NCBI GenBank assembly: GCA_013816585.1 | Contig: JACDEE010000021.1 | Coordinates: forward strand, 1-43,453 | From: Sphingosinicella sp. | Lineage (GTDB): Bacteria > Pseudomonadota > Alphaproteobacteria > Sphingomonadales > Sphingomonadaceae | DNA length: 43,453 bases | Direction of reading: 5' to 3' | Shown: positions 4,801-43,453 of the stretch, piece by piece | Numbering within the stretch: position 1 is the stretch's first letter | Layout of the letters: each line of letters begins with the position of its first letter | The notes under the pieces: model-generated | The model's input: the letters and a program-made list of their open reading frames with translations, nothing else | Told to the model about the DNA's origin: nothing | The model's database searches: none | Translations under genes and position numbers: made by a program

Positions 4801-7074
4801 TCAGCCGATCGCCACCTGATGCTTGCGCGCCCAGCGGGTCAGCGCCGCGCGCATGTCCTCGGGAGGCTTGTTCAGCAGGTCTTCGACAAAGGGCATCAGC
4901 TTCGACCGGTCGAGCGAACGGACCATTCCCTTGATCGGCCCGACCGCCGCAGGCGTGATCGAAAGCCGGCGGATGCCCAGGCCGATCAGCGCCATCGCCT
5001 CCAGCGGGCGGCCGCCCATTTCGCCGCAGACCGCGACCGGGACCTTGTGCTGCTGCGCTTCGCGGACGACCCGGCGCAGGAAACGGAGGATGGCGGGCGA
5101 AAGCCAGTCATAGCGCTCAGCAAGCTTGGGATGGGCGCGATCGGCCGCGAACAGGAATTGGGTGAGGTCGTTGGTGCCGATCGACAGGAAATCCACCTTG
5201 GGCAGCAATATGTCCAGTGTTTCGGCCAACGCGGGAACTTCCAGCATCGCGCCATAATTGATTTTGGCGGGAAGCTGCTTTTTCCGACTTTGCAGCCAGT
5301 GTTTCTGTTCCTCCACCAGCGCCTTGGCGTCGTCGAATTCCCACGGCTCGGACACCATCGGGAACATGATGTGGATTTCGCGGCCCGCGCCGGCCTCCAG
5401 CAGGGCCCGGGCTTGAGCCTTCATCAAGGCGCTCCGGTCGAGCGACAGGCGAAGGGCCCGCCAGCCCATCGCTGGATTTTCTTCCTCCTGCTCCTCGGCG
5501 TGCAGATAGGGCAGGGCCTTGTCGCCGCCGATATCGAGCGTCCGGAATACGACCAGTTTGCCGGCCGCCGCATCCAGTACCGCTTTGTACAATTTCTGCT
5601 GCATTTCGCGGCGCGGCAGGGTGGCGGAAACGAGGAACTGGAATTCGGTGCGGAACAGCCCGATGGCATCGGCCCCGGTGACCTTCAGCGCCTCGACATC
5701 GTCCTGCAGGCCGGCATTGATCGCGACGGTAAGCCGCACCCCGTCCAGGGTGATCGAGGGCAGCGATTTGTAGGCCGCGAATTCAGCGCGCTGTTTCTGC
5801 TTCACCAGCAATTTGGACTCGAAGGCACGGTGGACCGCGGAAGTTGGCCGGACATGGACTACACCCTCGTCGCCATCGACCAGCAATTCGTCGCCTTCGC
5901 CGATGATCCGGCGAACGTCGCGGGCTCGGCCTATCACCGGTATGCCCATCGCCCGCGCGACGATCGTCACATGGGCGGTGAGCGAACCTTCCTCCAGCAC
6001 CACGCCCTTCAGCCGGCGGCGGTCATATTCCAGTAATTCGGCGGGGCCGAGGTTGCGAGCGACCAGGATGGCGTCGGCGCGCAGGCCGGTCTGGGCGGCG
6101 CTGCCGAGCTGGCCCGAGACGATCCGGAGCAGGCGGTTCGAAAGGTCGTCCAGATCATGCATCCGTTCGGCCAGCAGCGGATCGTCGATCTGGCGCATCC
6201 TCGTCTGGGTTCGCTGGCGGACGCGTTCGATCGCCGCTTCGGCGGTGAGGCCGCTGTCGATCGCCTCGTTGATCCGCCGGGACCAGCCTTCGTCATAGGC
6301 GAACATCTTGTAGGTCTCGAGTATCTCCTGATGCTCGCCCGCCGTTCCGAATTCGGCCTGGGCGGTCATCCCGTCAATCTGCTCGCGCATCTTGCGGAAG
6401 GCGGAATAGACGCGCTGGCGCTCGGCCTCCACATCCTCGGCGACGGTATGCTCGATCAGGATGCGCGGCTGATGATAGACGGCGATGCCCTTGGCCATTC
6501 CGGTGACCAGCTTGAACCCCTGCAACCGGGCCATCGCCATGTCGCGGCGGGCATCGGCGGCAGCGGTCGTCTTGTCGACCAATTTGGCCCCGGCGATCAG
6601 TTCGGACAGCACCATGGCGACTGTCTGCAACGCCTCGATCTCGACATCGTCATAGGGACGGGGATCGGCATGTTGCACGCAAAGGACTCCGATCGCGCGC
6701 TCGTTGCGGACGATCGGGACTCCGGCAAAGCTGTGATAAAGCTCCTCGCCCGTTTCGGGGCGATAGGCGAATTCAGGATGATGGCTGGCTTCATCGAGGT
6801 TCAGCAATTCGACTTCTTCGGCGATCGTTCCGACCAGCCCTTCGCCCAGGGCCAGTTTGGTGACGTGCACCGCGCTCTGGTTGAGGCCGATCGTGGCGAA
6901 CAATTCCAGTGCTCCGTCGCGCAGCAGATAGATGGAGCAGACCTCGCTCGACATCGCCTCGGCGATGATCTTGACGACGCGGTTGAGCTTCGCCTGCGCG
7001 CCGGTCCGCGATGCCATCACGTCGTGAAGTCCGGTCAATATCTCGCGGGCGGAGGTGGCGGAGCGTTCAGGCAT
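4801..7074 (-). CDS. ptsP: phosphoenolpyruvate-protein phosphotransferase PtsP (EI-Ntr)
   Basis: A 757-residue enzyme I of the nitrogen PTS. An N-terminal GAF domain spans residues ~15-165. It is followed by the EI N-terminal domain, with the phospho-accepting His in the swivelling segment GSLTAHVTIVARAMGIPVIG (His368). The PEP-binding barrel follows (FRTLDIGGDKALPY, GTNDLTQFLFAADR, and the active-site Cys in VAVCGEMGG). It takes phosphate from PEP and passes it to NPr, a signalling relay rather than sugar transport. The GAF domain is the mark of PtsP compared with PtsI. No ribosome site is clear ahead of the chosen ATG. Confidence 0.93.
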   Translation of the reverse strand: MPERSATSAREILTGLHDVMASRTGAQAKLNRVVKIIAEAMSSEVCSIYLLRDGALELFATIGLNQSAVHVTKLALGEGLVGTIAEEVELLNLDEASHHPEFAYRPETGEELYHSFAGVPIVRNERAIGVLCVQHADPRPYDDVEIEALQTVAMVLSELIAGAKLVDKTTAAADARRDMAMARLQGFKLVTGMAKGIAVYHQPRILIEHTVAEDVEAERQRVYSAFRKMREQIDGMTAQAEFGTAGEHQEILETYKMFAYDEGWSRRINEAIDSGLTAEAAIERVRQRTQTRMRQIDDPLLAERMHDLDDLSNRLLRIVSGQLGSAAQTGLRADAILVARNLGPAELLEYDRRRLKGVVLEEGSLTAHVTIVARAMGIPVIGRARDVRRIIGEGDELLVDGDEGVVHVRPTSAVHRAFESKLLVKQKQRAEFAAYKSLPSITLDGVRLTVAINAGLQDDVEALKVTGADAIGLFRTEFQFLVSATLPRREMQQKLYKAVLDAAAGKLVVFRTLDIGGDKALPYLHAEEQEEENPAMGWRALRLSLDRSALMKAQARALLEAGAGREIHIMFPMVSEPWEFDDAKALVEEQKHWLQSRKKQLPAKINYGAMLEVPALAETLDILLPKVDFLSIGTNDLTQFLFAADRAHPKLAERYDWLSPAILRFLRRVVREAQQHKVPVAVCGEMGGRPLEAMALIGLGIRRLSITPAAVGPIKGMVRSLDRSKLMPFVEDLLNKPPEDMRAALTRWARKHQVAIG

Positions 7075-34742: not shown

Positions 34743-34829
34743 GGACAGGTGGCCGAGTGGTTAAAGGCAGCAGACTGTAAATCTGCCCGGGTTTCCCGTA
34801 CGCTGGTTCGAATCCAGCCCTGTCCACCA
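34743..34829 (+). tRNA. tRNA-Tyr(GTA)
   Basis: An 87-nt gene with the CCA end encoded at 34827-34829. The acceptor arms GGACAGG and CCTGTCC pair. The anticodon stem GCAGA/TCTGC encloses CTGTAAA with GTA as the anticodon. A long variable arm and GGTTCGAATCC T-arm are present. A tyrosine integrase starts 174 bp downstream, so the 3' part of the gene is the probable attachment site of the island. Confidence 0.97.
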
Positions 34830-35003: not shown

Positions 35004-36737
35004 ATGAGCGGAAGCCGTGTCCCGCACCTTCAACGTCGTAACGGTATCTACCACCTGCGAATGCGGGTTCCGCACGACGTTCGGCTGCGGGTCGGATTGC
35101 GCGAGGTGCGACGGTCACTTGGGACCTACGCCACCCGTGAAGCGCAAACTCTCGCTGCCGTTTTTGTGGCGCGGCTGAGAGGAGCCTTCGAGGTGATTAA
35201 GCACGAAGACCTAGGGAAAGAAGAGACACGGCAGCTCGTGGCCGCCTGTTTTCATGAGCTTGTTGAGGAAGTCGAAGCGGGCCACGGGTTCACCCCGCTT
35301 ACAAGCGAGCCAGATTTGGAACACGCTGAGCAGCGTGAGATGACGAAGGAGCGGATCACGGAGCTTAGTTCGCAGATTATCCGTTGCGACTTCGAAGGAA
35401 GCATTAAGAACCGTGCCGAAGCAGCACTCGCGGCTCACGGGAAGAACGCTTCATTGTTGCCTCATGGCCGCCGCGTCGACCTGTTCGAAGGTGTTACGCG
35501 AGCCATGATCGAGCAGCAGCGTCTCTTCCTCCTTCGGCTAGATGACCGGTTGAAGGAGTTCGAGCCGGCCGACCCGCTTTTCTCTAAGCGGCTGCTGGCA
35601 CCTTTCACGCCAGCTCAAGGCGTTCCGGTGGTGGCCACGCCGCAAGTCCAGGGTCCGACCGTTGGTCATGCCCTCCAGGCCTATCTCGACCGGCACGAAA
35701 AGCTGTGGGTGAGGAAAACTCATGCCGCTCGCGTTTGGCAGCTTCGCTATCTGGGAGAATTTCTGGGAGCAGATCGTGCACTGAGCACGGTCACATCGCA
35801 CGATGTGCGGGCGTACCGTGACGCCATCCTCTGCCTTCGCAAAAACCACGGGCGTTCGCCGTCCCAATCCTTTCTTCAGAAGCAGACGACCAATTCCACC
35901 AGCAGGATAGCAGACAAGACCGCCAGCCTCATTTTTGAACCCTGCAAGGCTTTCTTCCGCTGGGCGAAGTCGTCCGAGGGGATGATTTCGATGAACCCGG
36001 CTGAGGACGTCAAGATCACTGCGCAGTTGAAGCCGAAGGGGCAGAAAACCCGCAGGTCGTTCGAGGCGGAGGAGCTCAAGCAACTCTTCACCGCGCCGAT
36101 CTTCACCGGATGCAAATCGCTCCATCGCCGGTACGAACCTGGTCCGAAGGTGATCCCGGATGCCAAATACTGGATACCGATCTTGGGATATTATACCGGT
36201 TGCCGCATGGGGGAGCTGGCTCAGCTTCACTTTGCTGACGTTCGGCTCGAAGGGCCTATCCCGCACTTGAGCATCAATGAGGACAATCAAGGCGTCAGCG
36301 GGTCTGCTCCAAAGAAGCACGTCAAATCCTCAGCCGGCATTCGGCTGGTGCCCCTCCACCCCGACGTGATGGAGCTTGGCTTTGCCAGTTTCGTAGCAAG
36401 GCGGCGGAAGGCAAAGAAGATGACAGACCGGCTGTTCCCCGAATTTCCGTATGGCTCCGACGGTCAAGCATCGACAGTGATGTCGAAGTGGTTTGCTAGG
36501 TTCATGGATACCGTCGGGCTGACAGACCCCGCGCTGGTGTTCCATAGCTTTCGCCACTCAGCGGAAGACGCGTTTCGTGACGCGCTCCAGCCGCAGTACG
36601 TCATCGACACGATCATCGGGCACAGCGACGGAGCTACGAGCGCCGGCTACGGTGACGGAATATCGTTGGAAACCGCGTATGGGGCCGTGGCGGCAATGAA
36701 GCTGAAGGCTCGGTTGCCGAAACTCTGGAGCCCCTAG
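35004..36737 (+). CDS. tyrosine-type site-specific integrase
   Basis: A 577-residue integrase. The N-terminal part (YHLRMRVPHDVRLRVGLREV, then RRSLGTYATREAQ) is of the DUF6538 type often found in tRNA-targeting integrases. A core-binding domain lies at ~225-330 (GHALQAYLDRHEKLWVRK). The catalytic domain has Arg401 (GCRMGEL), His514 and Arg517 (HSFRHS), His540 (IIGHSD) and Tyr549 (SAGYGD), so all visible active-site residues are present. It adjoins tRNA-Tyr and probably inserted the island there. A start at TTG 34974 is also possible. Confidence 0.93.
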   Translation: MSGSRVPHLQRRNGIYHLRMRVPHDVRLRVGLREVRRSLGTYATREAQTLAAVFVARLRGAFEVIKHEDLGKEETRQLVAACFHELVEEVEAGHGFTPLTSEPDLEHAEQREMTKERITELSSQIIRCDFEGSIKNRAEAALAAHGKNASLLPHGRRVDLFEGVTRAMIEQQRLFLLRLDDRLKEFEPADPLFSKRLLAPFTPAQGVPVVATPQVQGPTVGHALQAYLDRHEKLWVRKTHAARVWQLRYLGEFLGADRALSTVTSHDVRAYRDAILCLRKNHGRSPSQSFLQKQTTNSTSRIADKTASLIFEPCKAFFRWAKSSEGMISMNPAEDVKITAQLKPKGQKTRRSFEAEELKQLFTAPIFTGCKSLHRRYEPGPKVIPDAKYWIPILGYYTGCRMGELAQLHFADVRLEGPIPHLSINEDNQGVSGSAPKKHVKSSAGIRLVPLHPDVMELGFASFVARRRKAKKMTDRLFPEFPYGSDGQASTVMSKWFARFMDTVGLTDPALVFHSFRHSAEDAFRDALQPQYVIDTIIGHSDGATSAGYGDGISLETAYGAVAAMKLKARLPKLWSP

Positions 36738-36829
36738 GCGGGGGCTTGCCGTCAATCGGGTAAAGGGCGAAGCTGTCAAACAGAGCCGTGGGATCGGCGG
36801 CTGATCCCTCAATAGCGGTGCTGTCGATT

Positions 36830-37993
36830 ATGGGGTGTCATGTGGCGGTGAAGTTAACTTCAGGAGGTAAGCCGCTCTTCCCTCTAACAAGCCCGCCACC
36901 CAAGCCGATACCAGCACCAGAGCCTAAGCTCATAGCCAAGGTGGTCTCCTATGAGGATAGAGAGATCATTGTAACCGTACCGTTCCCTGACAGCATAGAG
37001 TTGGTGGCGGGTGTCACAAACGACATCCTGCTGGTCCCCGATATCTCCGGCAAGTCGGCGAAACAGCTGTACACAGAGCTAGATCAGGAAATCCAAGACG
37101 CGCTTGTCGAGATAGCGATGAACTTACCGCCATACATTTCAGGTAAGGTGAACCCGAATAACCCGACCCGAGGCGAGTTCTACATAGCCTACGATGACGC
37201 TCAGCCATTGAGTAAAGCACGCGTCACCCTCTCCCGGACCAAAGGCGCTGACTACGCCTCCTGGCGCATCCGCTGCGAGTTCAGTCCTTCGAAAGCCGGC
37301 CAGACGGGGCTCGTGAAGTTAACTGCAGGGCTTGAAGCCGTCCTGCCGTTTGTCAGCATCCCAAAGCTCATCCACGCATTTGAGGTGGCGAGGATCGACA
37401 GTGCAATTGATTGCATAGGAGCCACCCCGCTGGACCTGATCGCGCACGTACCGAAGCCGGGAAAGCGAGTGGTTTACGTAGGGGCTCACGGAAAGCCAGA
37501 GAGCGTATATTTCTATGAGCTGAAGAAGCCGCTCAAAACACCTCCTACGAGACTAAGTGTGCTGACTAGGGGGCCGCATCGGCTGACATTGTATGAACGC
37601 CGAGACTACCACCTGCAGCTTTCGCTCCAGCCGCCGTACGGGCCTTGCCCAGTGACCCGAGCGGAAGTCATAAAGCGATGGACGAAGAAGCGACCTCTGC
37701 TGGCGGGGGTGACATCGCTCGACAATCTCTTTGCCGGCCGCAGGGTTGCTTACGCGGCGGCCGTACCCGCCGGCGGTTCGAAAGCGTGGAGGCAATTCTG
37801 CCTTGCTGCCTTTGGTGGCGGTATTGATAAATCCCTGTTTAGCTGGCTGCCCGGACCGGGTGCCACATTCGCGAAGGCGTACACAGCCTGTACCGGCGAC
37901 CTAATTGATCCTCATTGCTGGGACCGATGGGAGGATGGGATCAAAGCCACTGGCCTGGGCAAATGGGCTGAATTAGCCCAGTCGGGACAATAG
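36830..37993 (+). CDS. putative rolling-circle replication initiator-like protein
   Basis: A 387-residue protein from the ATG at 36830; the start is uncertain, with no clear ribosome site. I do not recognise it fully. The middle part (RIDSAIDCIGATPLDLIAHV, VVYVGAHGKPESVYFYELKK, GPHRLTLYERRDYHLQL) resembles the core of Rep_trans-type initiators, where an R-x-D-x-A-x-D strand is followed by a G-x-P/T-x-Y strand and an R-x-T-x-Y/D strand. No catalytic Tyr can be fixed. Base use is unlike the core. It holds three copies of the island's 16-bp motif. Confidence 0.55.
   Translation: MGCHVAVKLTSGGKPLFPLTSPPPKPIPAPEPKLIAKVVSYEDREIIVTVPFPDSIELVAGVTNDILLVPDISGKSAKQLYTELDQEIQDALVEIAMNLPPYISGKVNPNNPTRGEFYIAYDDAQPLSKARVTLSRTKGADYASWRIRCEFSPSKAGQTGLVKLTAGLEAVLPFVSIPKLIHAFEVARIDSAIDCIGATPLDLIAHVPKPGKRVVYVGAHGKPESVYFYELKKPLKTPPTRLSVLTRGPHRLTLYERRDYHLQLSLQPPYGPCPVTRAEVIKRWTKKRPLLAGVTSLDNLFAGRRVAYAAAVPAGGSKAWRQFCLAAFGGGIDKSLFSWLPGPGATFAKAYTACTGDLIDPHCWDRWEDGIKATGLGKWAELAQSGQ
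36848..36863. repeat. 16-bp island motif, site 1
   Basis: GTGAAGTTAACTTCAG, near the start of the Rep-like gene. It is a near-perfect palindrome around GTTAAC. Confidence 0.5.
37313..37328. repeat. 16-bp island motif, site 2
   Basis: GTGAAGTTAACTGCAG inside the Rep-like gene. It differs from site 1 at one base. Confidence 0.5.
37401..37416. repeat. 16-bp island motif, site 3
   Basis: GTGCAATTGATTGCAT inside the Rep-like gene, in the codons for its AIDCI segment. Confidence 0.45.
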
Positions 37994-38081
37994 GGAGGCA
38001 CGGGAAGGCACTTATCGAATTAGAAAAGAAAAAGAGAAGATGAACCTGGTGGGTCGTCCGGCCACCGGCGGCGGACAATGC

Positions 38082-38612
38082 TCAAAATTTCGTGTCGCGA
38101 TACTCTTTATGGAAGAGAGCATGTGCCCGCTTTACGACCATGACGAGCGTCAATAGGAAGTGCGTATAGAGCAGTACCATCACTGCGGGTGCGAGACCTC
38201 GCTCCCATTCTTCTGTATAAAATATGAGAGAAGCGAAAAGGGCCGTGCAAGACACAAGAATTAGGTAGGAAATGTTCGCATTCAATTCTGTAAGTAGGAC
38301 CCTGCGATCCTCCAATGTCCCCCGTTGAATTTTCTCCAGGCGCGGGTCGGTCGAAATATCCCACTCCCTCTGAAAAATAGCAAACATGCCGACTTGTATA
38401 TTCAAGAGAAGAGCGATGAAAATACCGAAGACGGTAATAGATGCACCGTAGGCGTCGGCTCTTTCTTCGAACCCAAGCAACATCGAAGCGCCACTTGCCA
38501 ACGCGGGGAGGACGTAGAATAAAAGTATGTCACCCGTTGACGCCCGTTTTGCGTCAGCGTCGCGTAATGTCGCGAGGTGATCGCTTATTATGGACGAGAC
38601 GTTGATCTTCAT
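38082..38612 (-). CDS. four-helix membrane protein, candidate defence effector
   Basis: A 176-residue protein I cannot name. Four membrane helices are predicted by eye at ~28-48, 57-80, 113-132 and 140-161, with a cytoplasmic loop of ~30 charged residues between helices 2 and 3 (REWDISTDPRLEKIQRGTLE). Its start overlaps the stop of the upstream gene by ATGA, so it is translationally coupled. Small multi-helix membrane proteins coupled to a soluble sensor are a common plan of abortive-infection systems; this role is inferred. Confidence 0.65.
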   Translation of the reverse strand: MKINVSSIISDHLATLRDADAKRASTGDILLFYVLPALASGASMLLGFEERADAYGASITVFGIFIALLLNIQVGMFAIFQREWDISTDPRLEKIQRGTLEDRRVLLTELNANISYLILVSCTALFASLIFYTEEWERGLAPAVMVLLYTHFLLTLVMVVKRAHALFHKEYRDTKF

Positions 38613-39531
38613 GTCTTCTTGCTCGCTAGCACCGTATGGAAATCCGTTAAAATCTCGTCTGCCTGCTCTCGCAGAGACTTGAAGGTCGGATGCCCGTTCC
38701 TGCCCTTTTTCACAGCGCCGGTCACATCTATGACGCCCGCTTCCGCGTCGCTGCCGAACACTCCGACGCTGCGATACCGGCCGCCTATCTGCACCTCGGC
38801 AACGGCTTCATTGAACGCAATCCCATCGTGCAGAACGACGCCCGCAGCGTTCTTTGTGAGGGACTTTGTTAGATCGCCGAAACTGCCGAGCGTCTTGTTC
38901 CGCCGCGCACTCAAGCGCACCTCGAAATTGACGCTTTCTGGTGCCTCTTTCCCGAGGTAACGATCCGTGATGTCTTTGGAAGCATTCCGCTTCACTAGTC
39001 TTAACTTTTTAACGGGCGCGGAGCTGTATAATCCTCCCTTTGAGTTAGTCGGGAGAAGTTTCTTAACAGCCATTGAGTATCCTGGATTTGCCTTGGCAAC
39101 GCTTCCTGGAGTTGGCTGATCACGAGGTTGATGCAGGACTTCCCGGCGAACGACTGGAACATCACGAATGCGTGGTTCGCTTTTTCTGGCAGCCAGAACT
39201 CATAGAACAAAGGAATTTCTTCGACGTCATCAACCTGCCGTTCGTAGTTAGTCGCCTTTGTCTTGTGGTTCTTAATCTTGCTTGCATACCCAAATGTTCC
39301 GTAGTGGATATAGCCCGCGCTGTTTCCGAAGCCGTCACGGTCTTTCTCCTCAAAATACCAACTTCGCTCCGCCTCGGCATTACGTGTGGGGTTCAAGTGG
39401 CTTTTGAAAAAAGCGGGCAAGAATTTCGCTGGAGGCTTGGAAAACACCTTCGAAGGAAACGGCAACAACGATCTATCGCCCTTTTCGTGAACGGTGATCA
39501 AATACCCTCGAAATCCAATAGCACTCGGCAT
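38609..39531 (-). pseudogene. soluble hypothetical protein of candidate defence pair, frameshifted
   Basis: Two overlapping frames on the minus strand read as one protein. The first (39531 to about 39100) gives ITVHEKGDRSLLPFPSKVFS and EIPLFYEFWLPEKANHAFVM through CINLVISQLQEA. The second, one frame away, continues AKANPGYSMAVKKLLPT and SAPVKKLRLVKRNASKDITD to the stop at 38609. One more A in AA (39098-39099; T on the coding strand) would give QLQEAFAKANPGYS and one chain of about 307 residues. Motifs such as IPLFYEFWLP...FQSFAGKSC occur in bacterial proteins of unknown function; a DUF6731-like label is possible but unproved. If the break is real, the product is cut at about residue 176. Confidence 0.6.
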
Positions 39532-39918
39532 CCTGCTCTAGCTCCCCGTTGCCCGAGCAGTGTCGCCGAAACCTTAGCAGATCGCAACGACCGTAATCGC
39601 GGCGAAAAAAATCGTGTTTTCCAGTGCGCATCGCACCACCCCTCGTGCGACTACAGCGGCCTGCTTCTATCCAGCGTCACGGCCTGGCGCGGCGTGTCGG
39701 GACGTGGCCGTCACCGTCTGCGGCGTCCGTATCGCCGATCTCGTGTCACGCGCTCCTCCTCGTTAGTGACACCAGGCAGATGGGCATGGCTGAAGGCATG
39801 TTCAGAATGCTTCCACAGCATAATTATCACTTAAACCACCATTTATCTGTCTAATCTGTTCTCGCTGAAGCACGTGACGCAATTCACTTGTTCTAGCTGA
39901 TACTACTTATATCGTATT
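39532..39918. other. 387-bp gap between divergent island genes
   Basis: I see no coding sequence. It holds an inverted repeat GTGTCAC (39743-39749) / GTGACAC (39766-39772) and, near the right end, the first of two 14-bp palindromes. It must carry the promoters of both the leftward defence pair and the rightward RarA-like gene. Confidence 0.5.
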
Positions 39919-39932
39919 GTGAAGAAATTCAC
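39874..39932. promoter_or_regulatory. two related 14-bp palindromes at a gene start
   Basis: GTGACGCAATTCAC (39874-39887) and GTGAAGAAATTCAC (39919-39932) agree at 12 of 14 bases and are 45 bp apart. The second covers the probable GTG start of the RarA-like gene. This looks like an autoregulatory operator pair. Confidence 0.5.
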
Positions 39933-41160
39933 GGTACATCTAATGCAAGACGATCTTTGGGATTATTTAGGAAAACGCCTTTCAGGCTCAATACAGCGTG
40001 CTCTCGTGAGCCCCGTACCTAGCGTAATCTCTGGCACGCTTCTGAAGATCGGCGGTTCTGCTAGCATCAGCTCCGATACGGAGATGCGGCAGTTCCTCGA
40101 CGCGGTCCTTGAGAACGTCATCAGAGACTACTGTCCGGACTTCCGGACGTTAGCTGGGCCTGTGGGTCACAACTACAAGTGGCGGTACAGCTCGGCCTAT
40201 CAAAAAGCTGTGCGGCGCAATGATCCCTCGGTCACGGCCGTGGCGGTTGCGCTGAACAACTGCGATCCCGCCTATATCTGGCGCAGGGCTCCGACCATTG
40301 CGCTGGAGGACGTGGGGCTCGGCGACCCTTGGGTTTGTGCTCTCGTCCTGCACGCCTGTAGGTTCTCAAAACTTAGAGCACGGCACGGGCTGGATAAGCT
40401 CGGAGCCTTCCTGGGCGAATTGATGGGCAGCGCCGTGAAGGACCGGCTGTCTTGCGACAGCTACTGCCTCCCCTATTTTCACCCCGAGCTCGCCGAGGTG
40501 CGGGCGGCGGTCGACGACATGTCGGCAGACGAAAGAGCGGATTTGTACAGGTCCGATCACACTCCGTTCGGGTCGAGGGTGGCAGCAGGTATCTCCCTGG
40601 CCGGTCCCCGCTATGGCGGCGACGTTTTCTCCGGATCGGGCGGGTCTCCCGATCAGCTAGCGGAGGCAGTGGAGGGGCTGGTGCCCTATCCCATCCAGTG
40701 GCTGAGCCGGCAGTATGCCAAAATGGCTCGCGACGGCATGTTCGTGTCCCTGCCACTCGTATGGCGGCAGCTAATTTCAGAGGGGCAGACCCAGCTTGTT
40801 CAGGGAGATGTTCCCAAACGAAGCCTGATCGAGGGTGTGTTGGCGGCAACTTTCGATGGCCACACCCAGGAGGGACGGAGGGCTCTCGCATATTTTGGCA
40901 AGGCCTGCGCCCCGATCCGGAAAGTCATCGGTGATGTTGCTAACCAGAACAAGCTGATCGCTTTGGCCGTATTCACAGTCGATAGCACCCTCCTTGACAG
41001 GTATCTGAGCAGCCCCTGGGCGACCGAGCTGTACAAGGAGAACTTGCGGGGCGAGGTACTGGCCGCCGGATTTTCCATGGGACAGTTTTATGATCTGGCG
41101 GAGGCGGTGGCCCATAACCGGGATGACCTGCATCATGCCCGCATGCGGGTGATGCGGTGA
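39919..41160 (+). CDS. RarA/MgsA C-terminal-like protein without AAA domain
   Basis: A 413-residue protein. Residues ~91-140 (SAYQKAVRRNDP, then DPAYIWRRAPTIALEDVGLG) match the pattern of the region after the ATPase in RarA/MgsA, where S-A-x-x-K-S-x-R-x-x-D-P and DPLYIARR...ASEDIGLADP are conserved. No Walker A or B motif is present. The remainder is unknown. GTG at 39919 or ATG at 39943 may be the start; neither has a ribosome site, so leaderless translation is possible. It overlaps the serine recombinase start and is likely one operon with it. Confidence 0.6.
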   Translation: MKKFTVHLMQDDLWDYLGKRLSGSIQRALVSPVPSVISGTLLKIGGSASISSDTEMRQFLDAVLENVIRDYCPDFRTLAGPVGHNYKWRYSSAYQKAVRRNDPSVTAVAVALNNCDPAYIWRRAPTIALEDVGLGDPWVCALVLHACRFSKLRARHGLDKLGAFLGELMGSAVKDRLSCDSYCLPYFHPELAEVRAAVDDMSADERADLYRSDHTPFGSRVAAGISLAGPRYGGDVFSGSGGSPDQLAEAVEGLVPYPIQWLSRQYAKMARDGMFVSLPLVWRQLISEGQTQLVQGDVPKRSLIEGVLAATFDGHTQEGRRALAYFGKACAPIRKVIGDVANQNKLIALAVFTVDSTLLDRYLSSPWATELYKENLRGEVLAAGFSMGQFYDLAEAVAHNRDDLHHARMRVMR

Positions 41161-41852
41161 TGGTCCCTCGGCGCAGACCGACGGGTGCGGTGTATGTCTC
41201 CTATCTGAGAGTATCCACTCAGCGGCAGGGACAATCCGGACTGGGCATCGAGGCCCAAAGGACGGCAGTAGATCAATACCTCGGCACCATCGGCGGCACA
41301 CTTTTAGAAGAGCATATTGAAGTCGAGAGCGGCTCCAACCGGCACCGGCCGATCCTGCTGAAATCAATTGCACAGGCCAAGAAGGCCGGGGCTACTCTCG
41401 TGATAGCTAAGCTCGACCGCCTGGCCAGGAACGTCGCGTTCGTTTCAGCTCTCATGGAAGCCGGTGTGGAGTTCGTCGCGGTCGATTTCCCAGCCGCGAA
41501 CAAGTTACTCATTCACATCATGGCGGCCGTGGCTGAGCATGAGCGAATGCTGATCTCCGAACGGACAAAAGCTGCTCTGGCAGTGGCAAAATCGCGGGGA
41601 GTGCGTCTTGGAGTGAACGGCCAGCGTCTTGCGGAGCAGCACAAGGCCGCGGCTATGGAGTTCGCGCAGACGCTGCGTGAGCCGGTTTTGGACGCAGTGC
41701 GGGAGGGGGCTCGGACCCTGCAGAATGTAGCGGACCAGCTGAACCGCGGCGGTCAGCTCACTCGTGAGGGAGCTCTCTGGTCACCGATGGGCGTGCGGCG
41801 GTTGATGCACCGCCTGGACCTTCGTACGGCAGCGAGATTGGACGTCGCTTGA
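41160..41852 (+). CDS. serine recombinase (resolvase/invertase family)
   Basis: A 230-residue enzyme. The catalytic Ser19 is in YLRVSTQRQGQSGLGIEAQ, and AKLDRLARN and AVAEHERMLISERTKAAL are the usual family blocks. The C-terminal part (LQNVADQLNRGGQLTREGAL, then W-x-P-x-x-V-x-R-L-M) is a DNA-binding recombinase tail. The start ATG shares one base with the stop of the RarA-like gene (GTG 41157 is an alternative). Its 3' end is part of a direct repeat found again after the small regulator gene. It contains one copy of the 16-bp motif. Confidence 0.92.
   Translation: MVPRRRPTGAVYVSYLRVSTQRQGQSGLGIEAQRTAVDQYLGTIGGTLLEEHIEVESGSNRHRPILLKSIAQAKKAGATLVIAKLDRLARNVAFVSALMEAGVEFVAVDFPAANKLLIHIMAAVAEHERMLISERTKAALAVAKSRGVRLGVNGQRLAEQHKAAAMEFAQTLREPVLDAVREGARTLQNVADQLNRGGQLTREGALWSPMGVRRLMHRLDLRTAARLDVA
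41358..41373. repeat. 16-bp island motif, site 4
   Basis: CTGAAATCAATTGCAC inside the serine recombinase gene. With the bases after it, it matches site 9 (42820) over TGAAATC[A/G]ATTGCACAGGC. Confidence 0.5.
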
Positions 41853-42103
41853 CCAAGGTGGGACCGCTGCTGCCTTTTTGAAGAAAAAGAGACAATTTCA
41901 TAACTGACGCAGTATGTTACGGCCGCCGAAGAGTAAGCCAGTTGGCTCTCGAAGCGCAAGTTTCCGACGGGGTGAGATGAGCCAGCGGGAGTGCAATTAA
42001 CTGCACCGATTTAGCATTTCAGGCACTCCAGGCAGCCATGCAGGTCCCATGCCCGCCTATAAAGTCGTCCATGCTCACCCGCCACTTGTGAAATCAATTG
42101 CAC
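41797..42103. repeat. direct repeat A, after the serine recombinase
   Basis: The unit begins in the 3' end of the recombinase gene (GCGGTTGATGCAC, then ACGGCAGC), continues with CTTGACCAA...GGGACCGCTGCT, GGCTCTC and GTTT(T)CGA elements, and ends with a 113-bp block bounded by 16-bp motif sites 5 (GTGCAATTAACTGCAC, 41991-42006) and 6 (GTGAAATCAATTGCAC, 42088-42103), which are inverted to each other. Between them GCAT...ATGCC can pair. TCCATGCTCACCCGCC is identical in copy B. This fills the 326-bp stretch without a gene after the recombinase. Confidence 0.65.
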
Positions 42104-42178
42104 GGCTTTTTGGTCAACCTCGCGCCTCAGGGTTCTAGCCAACTTGCTTTCAGCACCCGTCCAATGCGATCAGTATTT

Positions 42179-42496
42179 ATGCTTTTGACACCAGAGATGT
42201 GCCGCGCTGCCCGGGCTTTGCTCAACTGGAAGGCGCACGAACTCGCCAGTGCAGCAGGCCTGGGCATCACCACCGTCAGACGCTTCGAAGCTGGCGGTAT
42301 GGTTCGGCTGGCGTCTGTGGAGGCAATGCTGCAGGCTCTTGAGGGTGCAGGCCTTGAGTTCATCGCGGCCGGCGGGCAGTCACTGGACGGCGGGCCGGGG
42401 CTGCGCACGGTACCGATGGCGGAACCGGAGGTCGCCGCGGCCGAAGAGGCTGTCGAGCTGCACCAGCAGACGCTAAGCGCCGCTGACGAGTTTTAG
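42179..42496 (+). CDS. small XRE-type transcriptional regulator
   Basis: A 105-residue protein from the ATG at 42179; other starts at 42164 or 42098 are possible and no ribosome site decides. The HTH is near the N-terminus (LTPEMCRAARALLNWKAHEL, ASAAGLGITTVRRFEAGG), then SVEAMLQALEGAGLEFIAAG, the usual end of this XRE type. The tail is acidic. It stands between direct repeats A and B and is the best candidate for binding the 16-bp motif. Confidence 0.75.
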   Translation: MLLTPEMCRAARALLNWKAHELASAAGLGITTVRRFEAGGMVRLASVEAMLQALEGAGLEFIAAGGQSLDGGPGLRTVPMAEPEVAAAEEAVELHQQTLSAADEF

Positions 42497-42521
42497 CTCT
42501 CTCTTTGGCTTGAATTTTTGT

Positions 42522-42835
42522 CTGCGGTTAACTGCACAATCACACGGCAGCAATCACGCTTGACCAACAAGGGACCGCTGCTCGCTTTTGGCTAGAAAAG
42601 CCGAAAATTCCTCGTCTTTTCAACGTGAACTGACTATCGAAGTCAAAGCTGACTGGCTCTCCACGAGAAAGTTTTCGAAGAGGCTTGGAGAGAGCTGATA
42701 AACCGTGTTCGGCGGATCGGTGCAATCAACTGCACAAATTTGGGCATATCGGGCTCTGGTGGCAGGCACGCAGCGGGCTCGCATGCCCAATCAAGTCATT
42801 CCATGCTCACCCGCCGACTGTGAAATCGATTGCAC
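42522..42835. repeat. direct repeat B, after the regulator gene
   Basis: A diverged copy of unit A. It starts with 16-bp motif site 7 (CTGCGGTTAACTGCAC, 42522-42537), then ACGGCAGC, CTTGACCAA and GGGACCGCTGCT, and ends with a 116-bp block bounded by sites 8 (GTGCAATCAACTGCAC, 42720-42735) and 9 (GTGAAATCGATTGCAC, 42820-42835). GGGCAT...ATGCCC can pair inside. The start can be read as a decayed recombinase C-terminus ending with the same ...GCTTGA stop. It occupies most of the 466 bp between the regulator and the HUH gene; no gene is seen here. Confidence 0.65.
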
Positions 42836-42962
42836 AGGCGTGGGCAATCAGCGTCCCAGCGCCGCTAAAATGCCGTAGGAAGGTTGTTTGAGCTGTTAGC
42901 TTGATTAAGGTCTTGCCGAGCGAGCGCATCTTCGGGGATTGTCTGCTTTCGACCCATGGCGG

Positions 42963-43327
42963 TCATTCGGCGGACTGCGGCTGGAGTGCTGATTTTGGCC
43001 GATAGCCCAATGAAGCCAGCACTCTTTGTTCGTTTGCTTCCCCCAGCCCTTTCACAACGTAGTGAGCGGCTCCGTAGGGCGTGTTGTCGCGGGCAAGCTT
43101 AATCATTGTAAAGCCTCTTCCCCAGCTGTCATCCAGTTGACGCTTGGTTATTCGTTCATTGGGGTCTGCCTCATGGAGCAAGAAGTGGGCATGAGGCTTG
43201 CCGTTCCGACCGCTTTCCACAGTCGCAAGATACCTGAAGCTCGATCCTGCTTTTCGCAGTCGTTTCCAGTAACGTTGAAGTTCCTCAACTGCTTCATGGA
43301 CGATGAGCTCTCGCCGCTCGGCTTGCT
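42963..43327 (-). pseudogene. HUH-type Rep protein, 5' end cut by IS5-family element
   Basis: The minus-strand frame is open to the IS border and gives ELIVHEAVEELQRYWKRLRK, FRYLATVESGRNGKPHAHFL and AAHYVVKGLGEANEQRV. PHAHFLL is the His-x-His metal motif, and Tyr in HYVVKGLG fits the catalytic Tyr-x-x-Lys of rolling-circle replication proteins of the ORF2/G2P kind. No ATG exists between the IS5 tail and this block, so the start was lost. A shorter GTG start at 43220 would lose the conserved strand before HUH. Confidence 0.65.
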
Positions 43328-43453
43328 CTAGGCCATAGACTCATAAGCGCGCAACCACAGGCGCATTGAGGCGAGCTTGACCATGGCGAGGAAGTTGTCG
43401 GCGAGCTTGTCGTAGCGCGTGGAGATCCGGCGGAAGTGCTTCAATTTGCTGAA
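43328..43453 (-). mobile_element. IS5-family transposase, C-terminal end
   Basis: The minus strand enters from the window edge and reads FSKLKHFRRISTRYDKLADN and FLAMVKLASMRLWLRAYESM, ending at TAG (43330-43328). ATRYDKLAxNFLAxVxLA is the usual end of IS5-type DDE transposases. Only the tail is in the window. It abuts the HUH Rep fragment, whose 5' end it has replaced. Confidence 0.85.

Follow-up and report, generated by a model that had tools for sequence, protein, structure and literature searches.

A 43,453-nucleotide stretch of Sphingosinicella sp. DNA (JACDEE010000021.1; one whole contig, C5, called the window below) ends within an island that begins at a tRNA-Tyr gene, and nine copies of a 16-bp palindromic site are dispersed through that island. 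The sequence GTGCAATTAATTGCAC and close variants of it recur widely in tRNA-integrated elements of Alphaproteobacteria; the sites are enriched over chance, are biased towards gene 5' ends, are spread across the genomes of large phages and stand before most genes of the protein family phrog_17202 (P185 below), while MGS-like genes, named for a RarA/MgsA C-terminal-domain protein of the island, occur in islands and phages alike. Taken as a comparison of sequences, this suggests a control system common to islands and viruses. The explanation that we favor, at a probability of about 0.45, is that the sites are dispersed operators of phages and islands, bound by a dimeric regulator of the P185 type or an equivalent, which may silence or tune transcription in the manner of the stoperators of mycobacteriophages.

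Nine copies of one site in a tRNA-Tyr island

An earlier note on this DNA had proposed that nine sites fit the pattern STGMARTYRAYTKCAS, which is the pattern tested here. Seven fit it exactly (36848, 37313, 41358, 41991, 42088, 42720 and 42820), whereas those at 37401 and 42522 are each one base off. The sites and the two repeat units that hold four of them are as follows.

36848..36863, + strand, site 1, GTGAAGTTAACTTCAG; overlapping the Rep-like gene at its start region; found by pattern and matrix
37313..37328, + strand, site 2, GTGAAGTTAACTGCAG; within the Rep-like gene; pattern and matrix
37401..37416, + strand, site 3, GTGCAATTGATTGCAT; within the Rep-like gene; one mismatch to the pattern (T at position 16)
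41358..41373, + strand, site 4, CTGAAATCAATTGCAC; within the serine recombinase gene; pattern and matrix
41846..42103, + strand, repeat unit A; two sites, 97 bp apart
41991..42006, + strand, site 5, GTGCAATTAACTGCAC; in unit A, 172 bp before the XRE start
42088..42103, + strand, site 6, GTGAAATCAATTGCAC; in unit A, 75 bp before the XRE ATG at 42179
42522..42537, + strand, site 7, CTGCGGTTAACTGCAC; between the XRE stop and unit B; one mismatch (G at position 5)
42557..42835, + strand, repeat unit B; diverged direct copy of unit A; two sites, 100 bp apart
42720..42735, + strand, site 8, GTGCAATCAACTGCAC; in unit B; pattern and matrix
42820..42835, + strand, site 9, GTGAAATCGATTGCAC; in unit B; pattern and matrix

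The placement among genes described in the note holds as well, with three sites in the Rep-like open reading frame (ORF), whose start is probably near the GTG at 36842 by alignment with relatives, one in the serine recombinase gene, four in the repeat units and one, at 42522, between the XRE stop and unit B. Shuffled versions of the window contained on average 0.01 exact matches to the pattern versus 7 observed, and with up to two mismatches allowed the window gave ten matches, namely the nine sites and one at 40765 with two mismatches. A matrix built from the nine sites scored them at 19.5-24.9; no other sequence exceeded 10.4 in the island, and in the core part of the window the maximum was 8.4, in agreement with the remark that no copy had been noticed in the core. 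Because pattern and matrix were both derived from the sites, leave-one-out matrices were also run, and under these each site ranked first in the window (17.0-24.2; best other sequence at most 11.2); no match scoring 15 or more appeared in 60 shuffles of the island. In the genome as a whole (2,824,289 bases in 62 contigs) the exact pattern occurred once more, at C60:46926, which chance can explain, since the shuffle rate scaled to the genome gives about 0.65; this match (L055:6927, genome G000) has a weak second site (9.7) 205 bp off and adjoins what looks by eye like a large methyltransferase-like gene. Neither the exact-pattern scan of the genome nor the shuffles of window and island thus gave a density equal to that of the island. 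The shuffles, the genome scan and the leave-one-out matrices rule out chance as the source of the window sites, and the nine-copy motif is confirmed as real.

Anatomy of the site

Among 78 sites scoring >17, G at position 3 and C at position 14 are invariant, the flanks carry no information and conservation is confined to the 16 bp. The centre is a pyrimidine-purine step in 78/78 of these sites, which were chosen by a matrix that itself favors such centres, and in 28/28 sites chosen by the half-sites GTGCAA and TTGCAC alone. The suggestion in the earlier note that the site pairs of units A and B co-evolve is literally true, but there are only two pairs and the observation reduces to the pyrimidine-purine centre. 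The two halves do not always match, A at position 4 facing G at position 13 in five sites, a mismatch more easily reconciled with a protein dimer bound to duplex DNA than with a hairpin. An RNA hairpin was in any case rejected, as units A and B fold no better than shuffled sequences and the halves mismatch in several sites. Neither sigma-70 promoters nor terminators were detected in 41800-43000.

Looser half-sites were counted at the right spacing and at four wrong ones. They numbered 8 at the right and 0 at the wrong spacing in the window island, 0 and 1 in the core, and 78 at the right spacing versus 48 at four wrong spacings together in the element loci described below. A variant with A at position 4 and T at position 13 (A4/T13) accounts for 10/18 sites of serine-recombinase elements versus 2/54 of tyrosine-type elements (Fisher 4e-6, for sites that are not independent). 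Defining a gene 5' end as the first 150 nt of a mechanically called ORF or at most 200 bp upstream of it, 47/93 sites scoring >14 fell at gene 5' ends versus 21% expected, and 40/81 did so after close relatives had been left out.

Recurrence in related tRNA-integrated elements

Strict-pattern scans, with separate patterns for 199 genomes of the family and 396 of the order, found the motif in 5/199 and 10/396 genomes, and the reversed-sequence control gave 0 in both. Five of the ten order genomes (G000, G120, G249, G377 and G382) have 2-4 exact matches, nearly all within ~12 kb, and the other five have one each; the single match of G055 lies next to a LacI-like gene and that of G206 within a reductase-like one (both judged by eye), and these two look unrelated. 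The strict 14-mer occurred at 31 places in 12 chosen genomes, 27 of them in element loci, the remainder being G052:C1:1713030, 2049783 and 2102494 and G120:C2:917125; none was found in three genomes of the same genus.

A protein search with MGS only, across 84,980 species genomes, led to 27 loci, 20 of which contain at least one site scoring >14 (58 sites in total; reversed sequences 0), five of these 20 being from genomes already encountered. The hosts include Erythrobacter, Sphingopyxis, Asticcacaulis, Methylobacterium, Pseudochrobactrum, Aurantimonas and Roseobacter among others. The seven loci without a site include three from outside Alphaproteobacteria and also Paenochrobactrum L106, a close relative of which (L108) has three sites.

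The motif-bearing elements draw, in varying combinations, on a common stock of genes: one for a tyrosine integrase, one for a replication initiator, MGS, and one for a recombinase of the serine or the tyrosine type. Their recurring plan is an integrase by a tRNA, in some elements a small HTH_17 protein, in many cases an initiator gene, MGS or DUF488, then the recombinase, and finally varied cargo that includes restriction-modification genes, an ATPase/UvrD-like pair and, by weak matches, reverse-transcriptase-like genes. The integrase side has a tRNA (Tyr, Ser, Leu, Glu or Gln) in 12/15 other loci scanned as well as in the window, and an attachment repeat was found in 1/12 loci searched, most of which may not reach the right end. 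That one (L117:5937-14062, Roseobacter sp. CCS2) is an 8.1-kb element bounded by an 18-bp repeat of tRNA-Ser. The element proteins are often only 20-35% identical while the motif is kept, and no gene family was common to all motif-bearing elements among the loci compared.

Two further arrangements of sites were seen. In the small tyrosine recombinase gene, several sites situated at the 5' end encode in-frame AINC peptides (L091:8392 and 8434; L092:10142 and 10196; L041:10904; L042:7316; L108:10107 and 10146), and such in-frame sites are therefore taken as operator-like DNA within coding sequence. In L093, direct repeats of ~155-227 bp around the sites at 6741, 7074 and 15717 bracket, by eye, a set of TonB-receptor-, FecR- and sigma-factor-like genes, an arrangement that we liken to units A and B bracketing the XRE gene in the window.

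Large phages with genome-wide sites

When IMG/VR was scanned for exact copies of GTGCAATTAATTGCAC, 77 stretches were found, many with only one site. Twenty IMG/VR records, picked mainly for having several matches, contained 1-28 copies each of the 14-mer (reversed control 0), and four records read in pieces contained 53, 54, 35 and 30 sites scoring >14 versus 0, 0, 1 and 0 in the reversed control. Three named phages, RcZahn, RHph_Y1_11 and DLP5, were located by protein search. The Stenotrophomonas phage DLP5 has 34 sites in 96.5 kb, and RcZahn and RHph_Y1_11 have 10 and 7, respectively, in the 40 kb read of each. The sites are spaced more evenly than at random in 6/7 sets (p below 0.04); in DLP5 the coefficient of variation (CV) of the spacing is 0.44 versus 0.96 for random placement, with 0/5000 simulations as even, and in RcZahn it is 0.35 over 40 kb. 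DLP5 half-sites occur 31 times at the right spacing versus 3 times at four wrong spacings together, and RHph_Y1_11 has half-sites at the same spacing with other centres (11 versus 0 at four wrong spacings). Orientation relative to transcription, as judged by the centre only, is significantly biased in the phage record G513, by 30 to 3.

The phages also carry MGS-like genes. DLP5 has one (profile E=6e-21), four viral MGS matches run past residue 200, and three of these loci (L238, L243 and L280) have 12, 6 and 4 sites; across viral MGS-like loci, 6/54 have a site (control 2).

A candidate binder and the proposed mechanism

The candidate binder is P185, a family of unannotated function. Its genes lie in six element loci (L042, L096, L103, L107, L111 and L160), in 3/4 of the phage records read and in other loci of IMG/VR. 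RHph_Y1_11, DLP5 and RcZahn, a phage of Rhodobacter capsulatus in which the protein is gp66, have it too; no match was found in plasmids. A site stands -10 to 150 bp upstream of 14/18 P185 genes versus 59/249 other ORFs of the same loci (p=2e-6), for an interval settled on with the distances already in view and a count that includes L233, which has no upstream site, and leaves out L186; over a wider interval of -10 to 250 bp the figures are 14/18 and 71/249. All three named phages (3/3) have a site 54-73 bp upstream of P185, which brings the total to 17/21 genes. As read from sequence, a P185 gene with a site just upstream has the layout of an autoregulated DNA-binding protein, with a putative role as repressor.

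These data allow a model in which the nine sites of the window would be 16-bp sites, each made of two half-sites near GTGCAA about a flexible centre, for a dimeric DNA-binding protein. One type of site would mark whole phage genomes of ~50-100 kb and one to about nine places in satellite-like tRNA islands. A regulator of phage type (P185 most likely, or a protein equivalent in function) could bind these sites, silence or tune transcription across the element and control its own gene through the site just upstream, while islands that have no P185 gene, that of the window included, might be controlled by a protein from a relative that resides in or infects the same cell, or by an as yet unrecognised regulator. 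A stoperator-like network of operators is proposed because phages contain tens of sites, sites favor gene 5' ends, their orientation is partly biased and a site precedes the presumed regulator gene. Since the island shares both its sites and an MGS-type gene with the phages, a satellite-like dependence of the island on such phages is plausible.

Several observations weigh against this model. The window island, L091/L092 and the 98 of 101 kb read of G513 yielded no P185 gene, and P185 is therefore not the whole answer; 4/18 P185 genes, that of L233 among them, have no upstream site, and the upstream interval was chosen post hoc. As P185 has no Pfam family above the cut-off and no solved relative, its DNA binding is judged from the look of the protein. 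The orientation bias is not significant in DLP5 (22 to 11, p=0.08) or RcZahn (6 to 1, p=0.125), nor is the evenness of spacing in G501. Many sites lie deep in genes, 25/34 of those in DLP5 being inside coding sequences, and the MGS match of DLP5 is strongest in the RarA-like part, which is also present in host RarA.

Other genes of the island

The genes recognised in the island are listed below; genes of unknown kind lie between the Rep-like gene and the MGS region.

34743..34829, + strand, tRNA-Tyr at the island start (ARAGORN); L045, a relative with a related integrase, is likewise at tRNA-Tyr
35007..36737, + strand, tyrosine integrase with DUF6538 (Pfam PF20172, PF00589)
36788..37993, + strand, pT181-type (Rep_trans-like) initiator-like gene (profile A3 versus 4cwe, E=1.1e-7)
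39919..41160, + strand, MGS, RarA/MgsA C-terminal-domain protein (profile A4 versus 2r9g, a RarA C-terminal fragment, E=6.8e-12)
41157..41852, + strand, small serine recombinase (PF00239)
42179..42496, + strand, XRE-type regulator between units A and B (PF01381, as ORF 42098-42496)

The predicted model of the Rep-like protein (mean pLDDT 71) matches 4cwc (E=4e-10). MGS overlaps the recombinase start by 4 bp; PF12002 scores above its cut-off in two MGS relatives and below it in the window MGS, for which the fold comparison is weak (best E 0.08). No attachment repeat was found in the window, and no PHROG structural match among the nine window proteins scanned. By tblastn the window Rep had no match in plasmid or phage records and the window MGS none in plasmid records, phages not having been searched that way for MGS; the repeat region had no match in plasmids. 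Towards the contig end, 42963-43220 (- strand) holds a fragment resembling REP_ORF2/G2P replication proteins (PF23343, below cut-off), and 43340-43453 looks by eye like an IS5-type transposase.

Alternative explanations

Of the three readings offered in the earlier note, namely an operator of the XRE protein, an iteron set and recombination sites, the first fares best insofar as an operator is concerned, but this XRE protein is not its likely reader: among 11 relatives of it in other genomes none had a strong site nearby (0/11, best score 12.2), nor did the motif-bearing loci that were compared yield a relative of it. A broader version, in which each element encodes its own repressor, the repressors differ from one element to the next but keep their DNA specificity and the sites are their ordinary operators, the binder being the window XRE or a protein of the XRE2 type, is unlikely and comes second among the rivals. 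Five sites surround the window XRE gene, a site stands at the 5' end of the XRE2 genes in L108, L110 and L097, and two XRE2-like matches occur in the motif-rich phages G499 and G501; however, besides the XRE relatives with no strong site, 3/11 motif-bearing or related genomes (G120, G382 and G077) gave no XRE2 match, on which ground XRE2 was rejected as the binder. Given the even spacing of the sites and the many that fall within genes, the main rival, itself improbable, is that they organise or partition genomes, serving as spaced anchors, or much as centromeres do, in the compaction, segregation or marking of phage-plasmid and island DNA, with transcription control secondary. The even spread over phage genomes, genes included, speaks for this, as do the ParB-domain genes of DLP5 and the reported ability of this phage to exist as a phagemid (PMC5834331; PMC7326821), whereas the enrichment at gene 5' ends and just before P185 genes, and small islands with as few as one to three sites, speak against it. 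An iteron set is not supported: the motif persists across elements whose initiator genes are different or absent, and phage copies are dispersed genome-wide.

That elements exploit the sites of a conserved host protein is very unlikely. It would account for the lack of a gene family found in all motif-bearing elements and for a motif conserved among such divergent element proteins, but 194/199 genomes of the family, 386/396 of the order and three of the same genus have no strict match, the A4/T13 variant tracks serine-recombinase elements, and the motif occurs in a Stenotrophomonas phage too. Least probable, to the point of being barely credible, are recombination or cassette-exchange sites of a small recombinase. 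Sites do lie in the first part of many tyrosine recombinase genes, and site-bearing repeat units bracket genes in the window and in L093; however, conservation ends at 16 bp, serine and tyrosine enzymes are accompanied alike, phages have tens of copies, and cargo parts at or after the recombinase stop and not at the sites. Four Erythrobacter elements are alignable across their sites and diverge at or just after that stop, for which reason the sites were also rejected as a cargo boundary. Other element proteins were rejected as binders on similar comparisons. Relatives of the serine recombinase lie in six loci with no detected MGS (L048-L053) and no site above 9, save for L049 (14.5, centre GG); G052 and G249 carry the motif but have only a RarA-type match to MGS. 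The query locus of the tyrosine recombinase and all three relatives at least 70% identical have a site at the gene 5' end, but 26 remoter loci score below 13 except L137 (14.6), and serine-type elements carry the motif without a tyrosine recombinase.

Implications

If the proposed operator network exists, one short sequence ties a widespread family of tRNA islands, some of which carry restriction-modification and other defence-like genes, to large phages of Alphaproteobacteria and Stenotrophomonas. It would allow such islands to be recognised by a simple sequence test, would single out phrog_17202 as a candidate regulator and would make it possible to ask whether these phages have the islands as satellites. 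A bolder version, possible though doubtful, is that the palindrome is an address common to large phages and islands, by which a phage protein switches the islands and their defence-like cargo on or off; in this tentative scenario the islands would carry the genome-wide regulatory sites of their helper phage and switch when that phage arrives or resides. Were this the case, a regulatory code would be common to unrelated integrases, replication initiators and recombinase types.

Comparison with known systems

No description of the motif or of the element family was found in the literature searched, nor any paper on DUF6538; the ten papers containing the 12-mers showed no related topic by title and by the start of the abstract, and the terms palindrom, inverted repeat and stoperator are absent from the main texts of the RcZahn (PMC8601537) and DLP3 (PMC7326821) papers. 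The initiator of PLE satellites belongs to the RepA_N family and not to the Rep_trans family. The copies differ from an iteron origin in being dispersed, and in being retained where the initiator is a different one or is not found. Serine resolvase res sites are about 28 bp long with conserved outer arms, unlike the present sites, which hold no information outside 16 bp. IncP plasmids have dispersed palindromic operators of the KorB/KorA type through a mobile element, and the likeness is that of one palindromic operator recurring, although the sequence of the site differs.

The islands resemble phage satellites such as PICMIs in being small integrative elements, with phage dependence here presumed. 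To our knowledge, an MGS-recombinase pair and a shared palindrome are not features of satellites. Satellites are described as having integrase, regulatory and replication functions and no structural genes (PMC13376191), and PICMIs as having reduced gene content and no capsid-remodelling genes (PMC10803314). The Delepquintavirus phage DLP5 is like the islands in its sites, its P185 relative with a site just upstream and its MGS-like gene; it is unlike them in being a whole 96.5-kb phage, and in centres that are mostly TCAA or TTGA, not TTAA.

The closest functional parallel may be that of cluster A mycobacteriophages (L5, Bxb1), which are described as having up to ~30 short repressor sites per genome, mostly in one orientation to transcription, and a conserved site upstream of the repressor gene (PMC6550527). 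Their stoperators are 13-14 bp, without dyad symmetry, and are bound by a monomeric repressor (PMC9283540). Because stoperators lack symmetry, the present sites do not belong to the mycobacteriophage system; they also differ in being a 16-bp palindrome, in their hosts, in their candidate protein and in being shared with integrated islands. The likeness lies in the tens of copies, 30-54 in the four phage records and 34 in DLP5, with only 9 in the window island; it would extend to the site that precedes the P185 gene in 17/21 cases if P185 is the repressor.

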